DNA of 56,836 bases from Candidatus Aenigmatarchaeota archaeon (GTDB lineage Archaea; Aenigmatarchaeota; Aenigmatarchaeia; CG10238-14; SCSR01), in contig JAGVVV010000004.1 of the NCBI GenBank assembly GCA_018304615.1, forward strand, positions 1 to 56,836. The letters run 5' to 3'. The stretch's first letter is position 1. Each line of letters begins with the position of its first letter. Under the pieces are notes generated by a model. The model was not told the DNA's origin and searched no databases. It worked only from the letters and a program-made list of their open reading frames with translations. Shown here piece after piece: positions 18,142 through 55,103 of this stretch. The translations under genes and the position numbers were made by a program.

Positions 18142-18432
18142 ATGAAATATCCTGAAGAAGTCCTAACCAAGGATAAGAAAGGAAATTTAGAGGTCAGGAA
18201 TATCATTTCAAAAGGGAAGTTTGTTTTGTATGATTACAGGCATTCAAAAACTTTCAAACAACTAGAAAACAAGAAGCTGAAACTCTATCTCAAAGACAAG
18301 GAAAGAAACAGAGGATTTTACTTGATTCCTTTGAAAGGATCAAGATATCTAATGATTGAAGCAAAGCAGGACAAACATCCAGATAGAAAAGTCTGGAACC
18401 AAAAGAAGAGAAAACCAGAGGGGCTGTTCTGA
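18142..18432 (+). CDS. Hypothetical basic protein
   Basis: 96-aa ORF with a 1-nt overlap to archease (TGATGG). Confidence 0.5.
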   Translation: MKYPEEVLTKDKKGNLEVRNIISKGKFVLYDYRHSKTFKQLENKKLKLYLKDKERNRGFYLIPLKGSRYLMIEAKQDKHPDRKVWNQKKRKPEGLF

Positions 18433-18848
18433 TGGGCTACAAGTTCCTTGAAGACATCGCGATTGCTGACATAGCATTCGAAGCCACTGGAAAAGATCTG
18501 AACGAACTCTTCGAGAGCGCAGCCACTGCATTGGAAGTTTCAATGGCGAACATAAAAAAAGTCAAACCAAAAATAAAGAAGGAGATCAGTCTTTCAAAAG
18601 AAACTGTCGAAGAATTGCTGTTCGATTTCCTTAACGAATTAGTTTATCTGAAAGATGCAGAGTCTCTCCTTTTCTCAAAATTCTCAGTGGATGTGAAAGG
18701 AAAAAAACTGCATGCAGAAGTTTTCGGGGACAAGATTGATTCTAAGACTCAAGAGTTAGATAACGATGTTAAAGCAGTCACGCTACATGGGTTCAAAGTG
18801 GAGAAAACTAAAGACGGTTGGAATACAAAAGTAATCCTGGACGTCTAG
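18432..18848 (+). CDS. Archease (RtcB-activating protein)
   Basis: 'YKFLEDIAIADIAFEATGKDLNELFESAATAL...LLFDFLNELVYLKDAESLLFSKF' archease fold signature. Confidence 0.9.
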   Translation: MGYKFLEDIAIADIAFEATGKDLNELFESAATALEVSMANIKKVKPKIKKEISLSKETVEELLFDFLNELVYLKDAESLLFSKFSVDVKGKKLHAEVFGDKIDSKTQELDNDVKAVTLHGFKVEKTKDGWNTKVILDV

Positions 18849-21337: not shown

Positions 21338-21373
21338 ATTTATACTTCGAACACAATTGAATATTAGGCGTGT

Positions 21374-21401
21374 ACTCGCTGCAAAGTCAGCAGAAACGAG
21401 T
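21374..21401 (+). promoter_or_regulatory. BHB-like stem-loop in rtcB 5' leader (anticodon-arm mimic)
   Basis: ACTCG-CTGC-AAAGTCA-GCAG-AAA-CGAGT: 5-bp outer helix (extendable to ~11 bp with G:U pairs), 4-bp central helix, 3-nt 3' bulge. Same layout as the tRNA-Ser intron at 55022-55050. Confidence 0.5.
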
Positions 21402-21458
21402 GCATGTAGAAAACTTATTCTGCATGTGTCTTGTAGATATTAGAATAAAAATTAGGGG

Positions 21459-22972
21459 GTGGAAAAAATAGAATTGAGTCAAGCAAAGAAAACTTCAGAA
21501 GTTACTTGGGAAATCCCATTAACAGCCAAAGATGGAATGAGAGTTCCGGTAAAGATTTTTGCAACAGAAAAACTGTTCAAAGAAATGGACCAAGGAGTTT
21601 TCGAGCAAGCAATTAATGTTGCAACTCTACCAGGAATTCAAAAATATTCCTATGTCATGCCAGACGGCCATATCTTTGTCAGCTAATACTGCAAAGAGGC
21701 AAGTGGGGCTACGGATTTCCCGTGGGCGGCATGGCAGCGATGGATCCAGAAACTGGAGTAATCTCTCCTGGTGGAATTGGATTCGACATCAACTGTGGAA
21801 TGAGGTTGATTAGAACCAATCTAACTGTAAAAGAAGTTCAGCCCAAAATCAAGGAGATTGTAGACACTCTGTTCAAGATGGTTCCAGCAGGTGTTGGAGC
21901 TTCTAGTTACACAGAAGCAAAGGGTTTCATAGATGTGAACAAGAGCCAGTTTGAGGAAGTTGCAACTTCTGGAGTCGAGTGGTGTGTGGAGAATGGTTTC
22001 GGATGGAAAGAAGATCTGGAAAGAATTGAAGAACACGGAAGAATAAAGGAAGCAGACATTTCCAAAGTTTCTTCAAAAGCAATAAAAAGAGGTATGGAAC
22101 AGTTGGGAACTTTGGGAAGTGGTAATCATTATCTTGAAATTCAACTAGCGCAGAAAAATGTAATTTATGACAAGGAAATCGCAAAGAAATTCGGAATAGA
22201 TTTGGAAGACCAAGCTGTTATCATGGTACATTGCGGTTCTAGAGGTTTCGGACATCAGATTGCCACAGATTATCTTAGCAGTTTCATTCCTGCGATGAGA
22301 AAATACGGGATCAAGATTCCAGATCCACAATTGGCGTGTGCTCCATTTTCTTCGAAAGAAGGTGAAGATTATTATAAAGCGATGGCATGCGCTGCAAACA
22401 TGGCTTTCGCAAACAGGCAGGTGATTGTTTTCCAGATTAGGAAGGCGTTCGAGAAAGTGTTCAAACAGGATGCCGAATCCTTGGGGATGTCGATAGTTTA
22501 TGATGTCGCTCACAACGTAGCAAAAGTAGAGGAGCATAAAGTAGATGGAGAAAAAAAGAAAGTCCTAGTCCACAGGAAAGGATCCACCAGATGTTTTGGT
22601 CCTGGGCATCCGGAATTGGCGCAAATATTCAAAGAAACAGGTCAGCCTGTTATAGTAGGAGGAAGTATGGAGACCGGTTCTTTCCTTTGTGTAGGAACTG
22701 AGAAGGCCATGGAAGAGACTTTCGGGACTACGATGCACGGAAGCGGAAGAACTATGAGTAGAACTAAAGCGAAGAGATTGGTCAGAGGGGATGAATTGCA
22801 AAAAGACATGGAGAAAAGAGGAATTTACGTGAGAACTGTGTCTTTCGCTGGTTTGGCAGAAGAAGCCGGCTTCGCTTATAAACCGATTAATGAGGTCGTG
22901 GAAACTATGGATATTGCTGGAATTAGTAAGAGGATAGTAGCGCTCCGACCAATTGGAAATTTAAAAGGATAA
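21459..22972 (+). CDS. rtcB: RNA-splicing ligase RtcB, interrupted by a putative 32-nt intron (join 21459..21671,21704..22972; 493 aa)
   Basis: Exon 1 ends NVATLPGIQKYSYVMPDGH. Exon 2 begins WGYGFPVGGMAAMDPETGVISPGGIGFDINCGMRLIRTNL, and the rest of RtcB is colinear to 'RPIGNLKG'. The two reading frames differ. Confidence 0.93.
21672..21703 (+). other. Putative archaeal BHB (HBh'-type) intron in the rtcB mRNA
   Basis: ATCTTTGTCAGCTAATACTGCAAAGAGGCAAG. Inner helix TCTTTG/CAAAGA (6 bp) plus CAG/CTG; central helix GGCC/GGCA (3 WC + G.A); bulges AT|A and AG|T coincide with the junctions needed to restore frame. Confidence 0.75.
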
Positions 22973-25100: not shown

Positions 25101-25919
25101 TTATAATTTGTAACCTAGACTATTAAAGATTTCCTTCATCTTCTGGGAGTCTGCCTCGATTATCGGAGATTCGCAGATGATTGTAATGTCAATTTTTTTC
25201 CTCAAAATCTCTTTTGCTAGTGGTTCAAAAGGAGGGGAATGGTCTAAAGGTTTGTGAACATCAACAAACTCCCCTTTCTTGTTCTTCTCCACGTTCTGGA
25301 AATGAGAATAGATGTGTTTCAATTTCAGCGTTTTCAAAACATCGAAGACCTTTCCGTAATCTATAGTTCCTTTTCCCCTCACAAACAAGTGCGACCAGTC
25401 TATGAATGGAATGATATCAATTTCTTTTGCCAATTTCATGCATTCATCAAGTGATCCGAACTGGCTCCATCTTCCCATTGTCTCGACTCCAAGCTTTACA
25501 TTCTTAATTCCTGCAGATTTCATTTTGTCTAAAACTTCCAAAAATCCTTCTTTTGTTTTTTCGTATGTCTGTTGAGGAGTAAATCCGCTGTAATAAGCAG
25601 AATGGATTGCGACAGCTCCAGCACCCATCCTCTCAGCTCTATCAGCCGAATCAAAAATCATCTTCTTGCTCGCCTCGATGATCTGCTTCTTCTGAGAATT
25701 CAGATTTATGTAATAAGGAGCATGTACGGAAAGACTAATTCCCAGTTCTTTTGCAACTTCTCCCACTTCTTCTGCCATCTTGGGCTGCATGTAAATACTC
25801 CTAACAAATTCAATTTCCTGAGCATTCAATCCAAGTTCAGAAATTCTCCTAAAACTGCCAATAGTTCCTTTTTCTTTGGCAGTAATGCAATTACCTGCTG
25901 GACCCAAAAATACTTTGAT
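25101..25919 (-). CDS. Endonuclease IV-like AP endonuclease (TIM barrel); start codon ambiguous
   Basis: 'LGPAGNCITAKEKGTIGSF', 'LSVHAPYYINLNS', 'GAVAIHSAYYSG', 'LGVETMGRWSQFGSLDECMKLA', 'PFIDWSHLFVRGKG'. The conserved N-terminus (IKVFLGPAG) runs upstream of the only standard start (TTG, 25907). Confidence 0.8.
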   Translation of the reverse strand: MKVFLGPAGNCITAKEKGTIGSFRRISELGLNAQEIEFVRSIYMQPKMAEEVGEVAKELGISLSVHAPYYINLNSQKKQIIEASKKMIFDSADRAERMGAGAVAIHSAYYSGFTPQQTYEKTKEGFLEVLDKMKSAGIKNVKLGVETMGRWSQFGSLDECMKLAKEIDIIPFIDWSHLFVRGKGTIDYGKVFDVLKTLKLKHIYSHFQNVEKNKKGEFVDVHKPLDHSPPFEPLAKEILRKKIDITIICESPIIEADSQKMKEIFNSLGYKL

Positions 25920-26961
25920 TTCCTATCACCTGAAGCCTGAAAGGCAATTTACCATATCCGGTAGGGGAACGATTGCCACCCCCTATCACTTTAATTCTTT
26001 CTTCTCTGATTAACCTGGTAATAATTCTTTCTATCCATTTCACTCTTAGTCTTGTCAATTCTTCAATATTGTGTTTTGTCGCAAAGCCGTATTCGAGAGA
26101 AGTTTCTTCTATAGATTTTAAGACCAAATCCAAACTTTCGCCATCGCCCAGCTTTGGTCTTTCAAAACTGTTTATGGCAGTATCCAAAATATTGGATTTT
26201 CTTTCAGAAATGAAACCTACCTTATCTCTAAATTTAATCAAGTTATTTCTTCCTCTTATGAAAACCTTACAAAAGAAAGACAATTTATTTTTAGATATTT
26301 TAGTTTCAAAAACTCGTTTTGATGTTGTTATACCTATTTTGTCCAAAAGAAAAATAGTACCAATTAGAAGTTGCGGTTGAGAATCCTTTATTGACGTCCC
26401 AAACCCAATGCCAACATTTCTATGTGCCTGCCCTAGATGATCTTTGAAAATCGTCACCCAACCATCACAAGTAAATAACCATCTCAATAGAGATCCAATA
26501 ACCTGTTCATCTTCACAATCCAGGAAAATTCTTGGAATTCCTATATTATTTTTTACTTTGTCCCCTCTAGTCAAACCTAGACCTTGAATCAGTATGTCAG
26601 CAAGAATTTCTGGCATTCGTATTGAGAAATTCTTTTCGTCTACTGTAAACGCCAATTTCATTTTTTTCAGCAATAAATTGAATTTTTCAAAGAAATCTCT
26701 ATCTTTATTCCAATAGCCAACCCCGCCACCAGTATTTATCAAGCCATCACCAAGTACTGTACCTACAAGTGCTGCCCACTCCTGTGTTAAAAAATTGACA
26801 GGAAAACTAACAGATATAGGAATTCCAAATCTTGATTTTACCTTTTCGATTAACGATTCGTCAACATCTCTGGGAATATTCTTTACATTAACATATGTGG
26901 AGTTATTTTTTAATAAGACCTTTGTCCCTTCAGGTAATTCCCAAATGTGAAGAACGGTCAA
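25891..26961 (-). CDS. LAGLIDADG-family homing endonuclease-like protein (free-standing)
   Basis: Two LAGLIDADG-like motifs, 'WAALVGTVLGDGLIN' and 'VIGSLLRWLFTCDGWV'; no intein splicing motifs at the ends. Confidence 0.75.
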   Translation of the reverse strand: MTVLHIWELPEGTKVLLKNNSTYVNVKNIPRDVDESLIEKVKSRFGIPISVSFPVNFLTQEWAALVGTVLGDGLINTGGGVGYWNKDRDFFEKFNLLLKKMKLAFTVDEKNFSIRMPEILADILIQGLGLTRGDKVKNNIGIPRIFLDCEDEQVIGSLLRWLFTCDGWVTIFKDHLGQAHRNVGIGFGTSIKDSQPQLLIGTIFLLDKIGITTSKRVFETKISKNKLSFFCKVFIRGRNNLIKFRDKVGFISERKSNILDTAINSFERPKLGDGESLDLVLKSIEETSLEYGFATKHNIEELTRLRVKWIERIITRLIREERIKVIGGGNRSPTGYGKLPFRLQVIGNQSIFGSSR

Positions 26962-38131: not shown

Positions 38132-38219
38132 TGCTCCCAACGGGATTTGAACCCGTGTCAATGGCTTTTTCCCAAACGTCGAGAAGCCATGATCCTTAAC
38201 CGGACTAGACGATGGGAGC
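38132..38219 (-). tRNA. tRNA-Glu(CUC) with 13-nt intron at 37/38
   Basis: GCTCCCA.../TGGGAGCA acceptor; anticodon stem ATGGC/GCCAT; TTCTC anticodon segment; intron ACGTTTGGGAAAA (38167-38179) with BHB central helix TTCT/GGAA and 3' bulge AA|A. Confidence 0.85.
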
Positions 38220-54994: not shown

Positions 54995-55090
54995 GCTGGA
55001 GTCGCCTAACCCGGTATGGCACTGGTTTGCTAAAATTTGCAAAAAACCAGCGCTCGAAAGAGCTTCGGGGTTCAAATCCCCGCTCCAGCG
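54995..55090 (+). tRNA. tRNA-Ser(GCU) with 12-nt intron at 37/38
   Basis: GCTGGAG.../CTCCAGC-G; anticodon stem CTGGT/ACCAG; intron AAATTTGCAAAA (55033-55044) with BHB central helix TTGC/GCAA and 3' bulge AA|A; long variable arm. Confidence 0.92.
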
Positions 55091-55103
55091 CCTTCAAACT
55101 TGA

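Follow-up and report, generated by a model that had tools for sequence, protein, structure and literature searches.

In the unfolded protein response, the HAC1 and XBP1 mRNAs are spliced without a spliceosome: Ire1 cuts the mRNA, a tRNA ligase (Trl1 or RtcB) joins the pieces, and the event serves as a regulatory signal. In these systems, to our knowledge, the ligase exerts no control over its own mRNA. In the archaeon Haloferax volcanii, the 5' untranslated region of HVO_1309 carries a BHB intron that is taken out by the splicing endonuclease EndA; the report on it describes cleavage in vitro, the appearance of circular RNA and a link to expression, and names the cbf5 intron, as of 2020, as the only other mRNA example (PMC7714728). 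According to reviews, the relaxed bulge-helix-loop (BHL) form of the motif is also a substrate for some types of EndA (PMC6379350, PMC12397907). Titles and abstracts of openly available, non-preprint papers yielded neither an rtcB leader element nor an rtcB intron, and we found no description of how the archaeal tRNA-splicing ligase is controlled in the open literature searched.

The locus described here belongs to a tiny uncultured archaeon, Candidatus Aenigmatarchaeota, with a genome assembly of 785 kb in 22 contigs (89% complete). The window, the whole stretch of 56,836 nt that was analysed, is contig C8 of this assembly. Judging from the sequence, the rtcB mRNA of this organism probably begins with a conserved hairpin that can fold in two ways and that copies the cut site of a tRNA intron (Table 1). 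HVO_1309 offers a parallel, as its mRNA likewise carries a splicing-endonuclease motif in the untranslated leader. However, HVO_1309 is an M24 peptidase gene with a 46-nt intron in a 192-nt leader, and no competing fold is described in the parts of that study considered here (PMC7714728).

Table 1 Features of the rtcB leader, the rtcB gene and related loci (positions refer to the window)
Feature	Position	Strand	Remarks
Whole conserved leader element (model match)	21367..21429	+	Covariance models R1 66.7 bits, R2 63.2 bits
P1 outer helix, 5' strand GCGTGTACTCG	21368..21378	+	
P1 outer helix, 3' strand CGAGTGCATGT	21397..21407	+	
Central helix, 5' strand CTGC	21379..21382	+	All four pairs covary
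Central helix, 3' strand GCAG	21390..21393	+	
Inner loop AAAGTCA, in place of the 5' bulge (bulge-helix-loop form)	21383..21389	+	Variable among relatives, 6-42 nt
3' bulge AAA, 3 nt	21394..21396	+	Invariant in 15 genomes; five tRNA introns of this genome have the same bulge
Predicted 11-nt mini-intron AGTCAGCAGAA	21385..21395	+	Cuts by the BHB rule after 21384 and 21395; inferred from layout
P2 5' strand TGCATGTAGAA	21401..21411	+	Overlaps P1 3' strand
P2 3' strand TTCTGCATGTG	21418..21428	+	
TATA-like box TTTATA	21339..21344	+	28 nt before the element
Shine-Dalgarno-like AGGGGGTG	21454..21461	+	ATG spacing equal in relative G002
Archease gene (RtcB cofactor)	18432..18848	+	Pfam Archease E = 2e-38; 2.6 kb upstream of rtcB
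rtcB exon 1, ends ...MPDGH	21474..21671	+	TTG start preferred, in-frame GTG 21459; 55% identity to G038 RtcB
32-nt BHB-type intron, frame-breaking, in-frame TAA	21672..21703	+	Hairpin CTTTG(T)CAG-CTAATA-CTGCAAAG
rtcB exon 2, starts WGYGFP	21704..22972	+	Pfam RtcB E = 5e-155
tRNA-Glu(CTC) with intron	38132..38219	-	TGGCT TCTC GACGTTT GGGA AAA AGCCA
tRNA-Ser(GCT) with 12-nt intron	54995..55092	+	CTGGT TTGC TAAAATTT GCAA AAA ACCAG
Insert-bearing rtcB loci			L014, L019, L020, L022, L033, L038, L040, L043, L095, L167, L173, L177-L179, L184-L188, L199

The preliminary description of this hairpin, which gave its sequence and coordinates, a 5-bp outer helix (21374-21378/21397-21401) extendable to 11 bp with G:U pairing, a 4-bp central helix and a 3-nt 3' bulge, proved accurate throughout. 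The competing hairpin that it proposed on the same P1 strand is likewise present and slightly longer (21401-21411/21418-21428 rather than 21402-21427). As its 5' strand overlaps the 3' strand of P1, long P1 and long P2 are mutually exclusive. The geometry is that of a BHB/BHL substrate of EndA, with the 4-bp central helix beside the 3-nt bulge and the outer helix on the exon side; the second 3-nt bulge of a strict BHB is absent, and a loop of 6-42 nt stands in its place, as in the BHL form. The leader is 58 nt away from the in-frame GTG and 72 nt away from the TTG; the TTG, which follows the Shine-Dalgarno-like (SD-like) motif, is more likely the rtcB start. By eye, the P1 5' strand of relatives (e.g., CACC, TACCC) can often pair weakly with the SD-like GGTGA, for instance in L074, L078, L083 and L086. 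In six relatives a TATA box (TTTAAATA or TTTATAAA) precedes the element by 29-31 nt, and in one by 35 nt. Given this spacing of about 30 nt, the rtcB mRNA should start at the hairpin, so that the predicted transcription start is likely to fall near the first hairpin base and the element at the very 5' end. The TATA-like box in the window similarly argues against a start downstream of 21401, an outcome that the preliminary description had named as refuting.

The layout had been likened to that of the tRNA-Ser intron of the window, and this likeness extends to five of the six canonical tRNA introns (anticodon loop) of the genome, namely those of tRNA-Glu(CTC) and tRNA-Ser(GCT) in the window and of three other tRNAs. 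All five share with the leader a 5-bp outer helix, a 4-bp central helix closed by a loop, and the AAA bulge, three of them with one mismatch in the central helix; the sixth has the bulge ATA. The leader shares the 5-bp outer helix, the 4-bp central helix, the AAA 3' bulge and the short loop with relaxed BHL tRNA introns at position 37/38, but differs from them in that no acceptor, D and T arms surround its anticodon-arm-like hairpin, that its outer helix of 8-12 bp competes with P2, and that it precedes a protein gene. Consistent with the preliminary description, tRNA and Rfam searches revealed no tRNA or known ncRNA over the leader segment, and the Rfam 15 covariance models gave no match to the element; a split tRNA half or an ncRNA gene was rejected on these grounds. 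By contrast, the proposed resemblance to a tRNA-Cys(GCA) anticodon loop did not survive the comparison: the loop triplet is not conserved, and we therefore rejected mimicry of tRNA-Cys. ARAGORN found no tRNA-Cys in 766 of the 785 kb of the genome. This may be a detection miss, because the assembly is about 89% complete and because a tRNA listed by CM at C15:41304-41377 is ambiguous, its anticodon loop appearing GCG- or GCA-like.

The predicted RNA fold of positions 21369-21432 (64 nt, -21.6 kcal/mol, z = -2.96) was equalled by 1 of 200 shuffles, and the leader, with 11 outer pairs, is the best arrangement of outer helix, 4 bp, loop, 4 bp and AAA in the 766 kb scanned. Arrangements with 10 or more outer pairs numbered 1, 0, 0, 2 and 0 in five Markov-shuffled genomes, so that the sequence of this genome by itself leaves chance possible. 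A matching element was seen by eye in the rtcB leaders of seven relatives. For seven sequences, RNAalifold gave a P1 of 14 pairs, 10 of them with two-sided changes. A covariance model built from these seven sequences found one match per genome in 15 of 160 Aenigmatarchaeota genomes from five families (E-values, which are rough, 8e-5 to 5e-14), each with rtcB directly 3' on the same strand. The stem-loop is thus kept before rtcB in relatives, a check that the preliminary description had named, and this conservation excludes chance: the leader hairpin is a real, conserved RNA element. With a single match per genome, we found no regulon beyond rtcB in the 160 genomes of the phylum.

The variation among relatives separates a fixed part from a free part. 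The outer helix across the 15 genomes is conserved over at least 5 bp and usually comprises 8-12 pairs (the automatic count was lower for G035 and returned none for G059, both of which the model aligns). The central helix has 4 bp in 14 genomes and 3 bp in G030, and the 3-nt bulge AAA is found in all 15. The inner loops have no common sequence, and the longest (G052, G109) contain an inner helix of the kind expected in a full intron. The constant features are those that EndA reads, and the variable part corresponds to an intron, in favour of an EndA target. P2 has 5-11 pairs and mostly begins right after the fifth outer pair, on the strand that long P1 also uses. In the fold combining short P1 with P2 (13 sequences), 96.3% of cells were paired and 11 of 17 pairs showed two-sided changes, a result equalled by none of 500 shuffles; the long-P1 alternative had 96.8% of cells paired. 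Alignment column 42 covaries in both folds, as C-G/U-A with column 5 and as G-C/A-U with column 63. Including P2 in the model (R2) raised the scores of two held-out sequences from 32.6 to 53.6 bits and from 31.4 to 47.0 bits, and the 3' fragment folded alone is predicted to form P2 in most genomes. Both of the alternative folds proposed in the preliminary description are hence conserved with two-sided changes, and such a conserved structure in the 5' leader of one gene is as expected of a cis-regulatory leader.

Taken together, we lean towards a reading in which the rtcB mRNA starts with a BHL-type EndA target that signals how active the ligase is and tunes rtcB. The 5' end of the mRNA would mimic, in relaxed form, the anticodon arm of a pre-tRNA that carries an intron. 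EndA would recognise the AAA bulge together with the 4-bp central helix and cut the leader, and RtcB would reseal it while the 8-12 bp of P1 still hold the short 5' piece. When ligase is scarce, P2 would invade P1 by branch migration and eject the 5' piece, leaving an mRNA that begins with P2. The rtcB mRNA could thereby sense the available ligase activity and adjust rtcB expression. The two covarying folds, the exclusive occurrence at rtcB in the phylum, the match to tRNA introns, the position relative to the promoter and the presence of EndA, archease and a single rtcB in the genome support this mechanism. They suggest that the ligase is monitored and regulated by the splicing machinery to which it belongs; if true, a conserved mRNA leader would sense that machinery via the machinery's own substrate shape. 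The parallel to HAC1/XBP1 is the use of an mRNA cut and a tRNA ligase as a regulatory signal.

The strongest objection to the cleavage step comes from EndA itself, which is encoded by one gene (190 aa, N and catalytic domains, one catalytic domain) and resembles the alpha4 type. In the literature, (alpha-beta)2 and epsilon2 enzymes are the only ones credited with efficient cleavage of relaxed motifs. EndA of the single-subunit type acts poorly on such motifs when they lie outside a full tRNA, and BHL introns within full-length pre-tRNA were cleaved by an alpha'2 enzyme (PMC6379350, PMC12397907). Regarding the read-out, the predicted accessibility of the ribosome-binding site showed no consistent change among intact, spliced and cut leaders. 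We therefore rejected SD sequestration as the read-out, which may instead lie in mRNA stability.

Some of this evidence would also suit other explanations. The exclusive link to rtcB and the conserved two-state fold would be expected of a structured operator, bound without being cut by RtcB, archease, EndA or some other RNA-binding protein that represses its own mRNA, as known for ribosomal proteins and L7Ae; for the latter, translational regulation in archaea is suggested (PMC5539422). Unlike most operators, however, the leader has no conserved loop sequence, its conserved features being mainly the geometry read by EndA, and we regard this explanation as unlikely. That same geometry, identical in layout to the tRNA introns of the genome, would equally serve constitutive splicing without feedback, in which the mini-intron is removed and the ends rejoined as routine maturation, for which HVO_1309 provides a precedent (PMC7714728). 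Routine maturation is nonetheless a quite unlikely account, as it leaves unexplained why the element occurs only at rtcB and why the competing P2 is conserved.

The two folds could also be those of a conventional cis-regulator, either a riboswitch, for which a bistable mRNA 5' leader is a usual form, or a 5' stability hairpin, with EndA uninvolved and the BHB likeness coincidental. The weak complementarity between the P1 5' strand and the SD-like GGTGA, seen by eye, would fit such a function. Against it, no conserved sequence resembles a ligand pocket beyond AAA and the short P2 loop, predicted SD exposure changes without consistency, Rfam gives no match and the layout is identical to that of tRNA introns, which together make this explanation very unlikely. 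A DNA operator or a chance hairpin has a near-negligible probability: an arrangement as long does arise 0-2 times per shuffled genome when one genome is considered alone, but the two-sided changes and G:U pairs, the one-sided invariant bulge and the location at rtcB in 15 of 15 cases speak against both, and the chance-hairpin reading is refuted.

The coding sequence of rtcB is itself interrupted. Read from the TTG, the rtcB ORF reaches a stop at codon 71, and RtcB homology is broken between MPDGH and WGYGFP (PDGH^W) by positions 21672-21703. Removal of these 32 nt restores an uninterrupted 488-aa RtcB, as expected for an archaeal pre-mRNA intron. The preliminary description was silent on this separate BHB-like intron. 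The segment folds with an AUA bulge, a GCC/GGC helix and an inner hairpin; compared with the BHB splice rule, under which the cuts follow the second base of each of two 3-nt bulges beside a 4-bp helix, it has three of four central pairs plus a G/A mismatch, and an inner helix of 7 pairs. It is comparable to the cbf5 pre-mRNA intron of Crenarchaeota, a BHB intron in a protein gene, but differs in gene and phylum, in the several positions occupied within one gene and in that the gene encodes the joining enzyme (PMC2738675).

Structure-blind spliced alignment revealed 32 rtcB inserts in 23 loci, a few of which are doubtful (those of 110 and 126 nt, beside an intein or ambiguous). They lie near residues 67, 69-70, 93 and 95-97. 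These four neighbouring sites fall in the conserved core of rtcB (after PDGH, after WGY/FGY and around GIGFDIN), and some genes carry two inserts. By the BHB rule, 24 of the 32 have at least three of four central pairs. The two strands of the helix at site 67 change jointly: some genomes have GCC/GGC, others GUC/GAC. The insert-bearing genomes are about 22 Aenigmatarchaeota and one Woesearchaeote (L095). With a BHB-type interruption within rtcB, RtcB synthesis would require RtcB, and the coding introns thus pose a start-up paradox; moreover, the rtcB of such archaea may wrongly be annotated as a broken or short gene. A fuller version of the favoured mechanism would be a race in which EndA cutting and RtcB resealing against P2 displacement sets RtcB synthesis, with the coding intron adding self-dependence in genomes like this one; we offer this version tentatively, at somewhat less than even confidence. 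The idea that the leader is required for coding introns was rejected, since most leader genomes have no introns and most intron genomes have no leader.

Outside the phylum, a diverged copy precedes rtcB in a Woesearchaeote (L087:905-970), with the same architecture of P1, 4 bp and P2 and the bulge AGA; a TTTAAATA box lies some 30 nt before it. This sixteenth copy was found by its layout and scores below the threshold of both models. A wider spread in Woesearchaeota was rejected: two weak model matches in 380 genomes had no adjacent rtcB by tblastn and unrelated neighbouring ORFs, and were judged to be chance. The general BHL layout showed no clear excess in other rtcB leaders (8 of 154, with 4.7 expected). 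On the RtcB tree, in which three genomes among the 18 leader rows appear twice or are named relatives, the element is scattered, with 11 gains or losses, 10 of them forced by supported branches. This scatter points to repeated loss or transfer, and such patchiness, with at least 10 gains or losses, to a regulation that is dispensable.

Probable inteins, recognised by long open frames and by matches that are split, were observed in rtcB at DIN^C, a few codons from the intron sites, in G014, G027, G032, G046, G056, G071, G078, G081 and other genomes; G020 (L043) apparently combines two introns and an intein in one rtcB. In the window, an ORF at 25891-26961 on the minus strand contains a LAGLIDADG_3 domain and is perhaps an intein or a homing endonuclease. 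Finally, the intron hairpin (21680-21701) and the leader (21379-21393) have CTGCAAAG and GTCAGC in common, and the intron loop CTAATA is similar to P2 loops such as CTAGTT. On the basis of these sequences, a common origin of the two hairpins, or cross-pairing between them, is possible.
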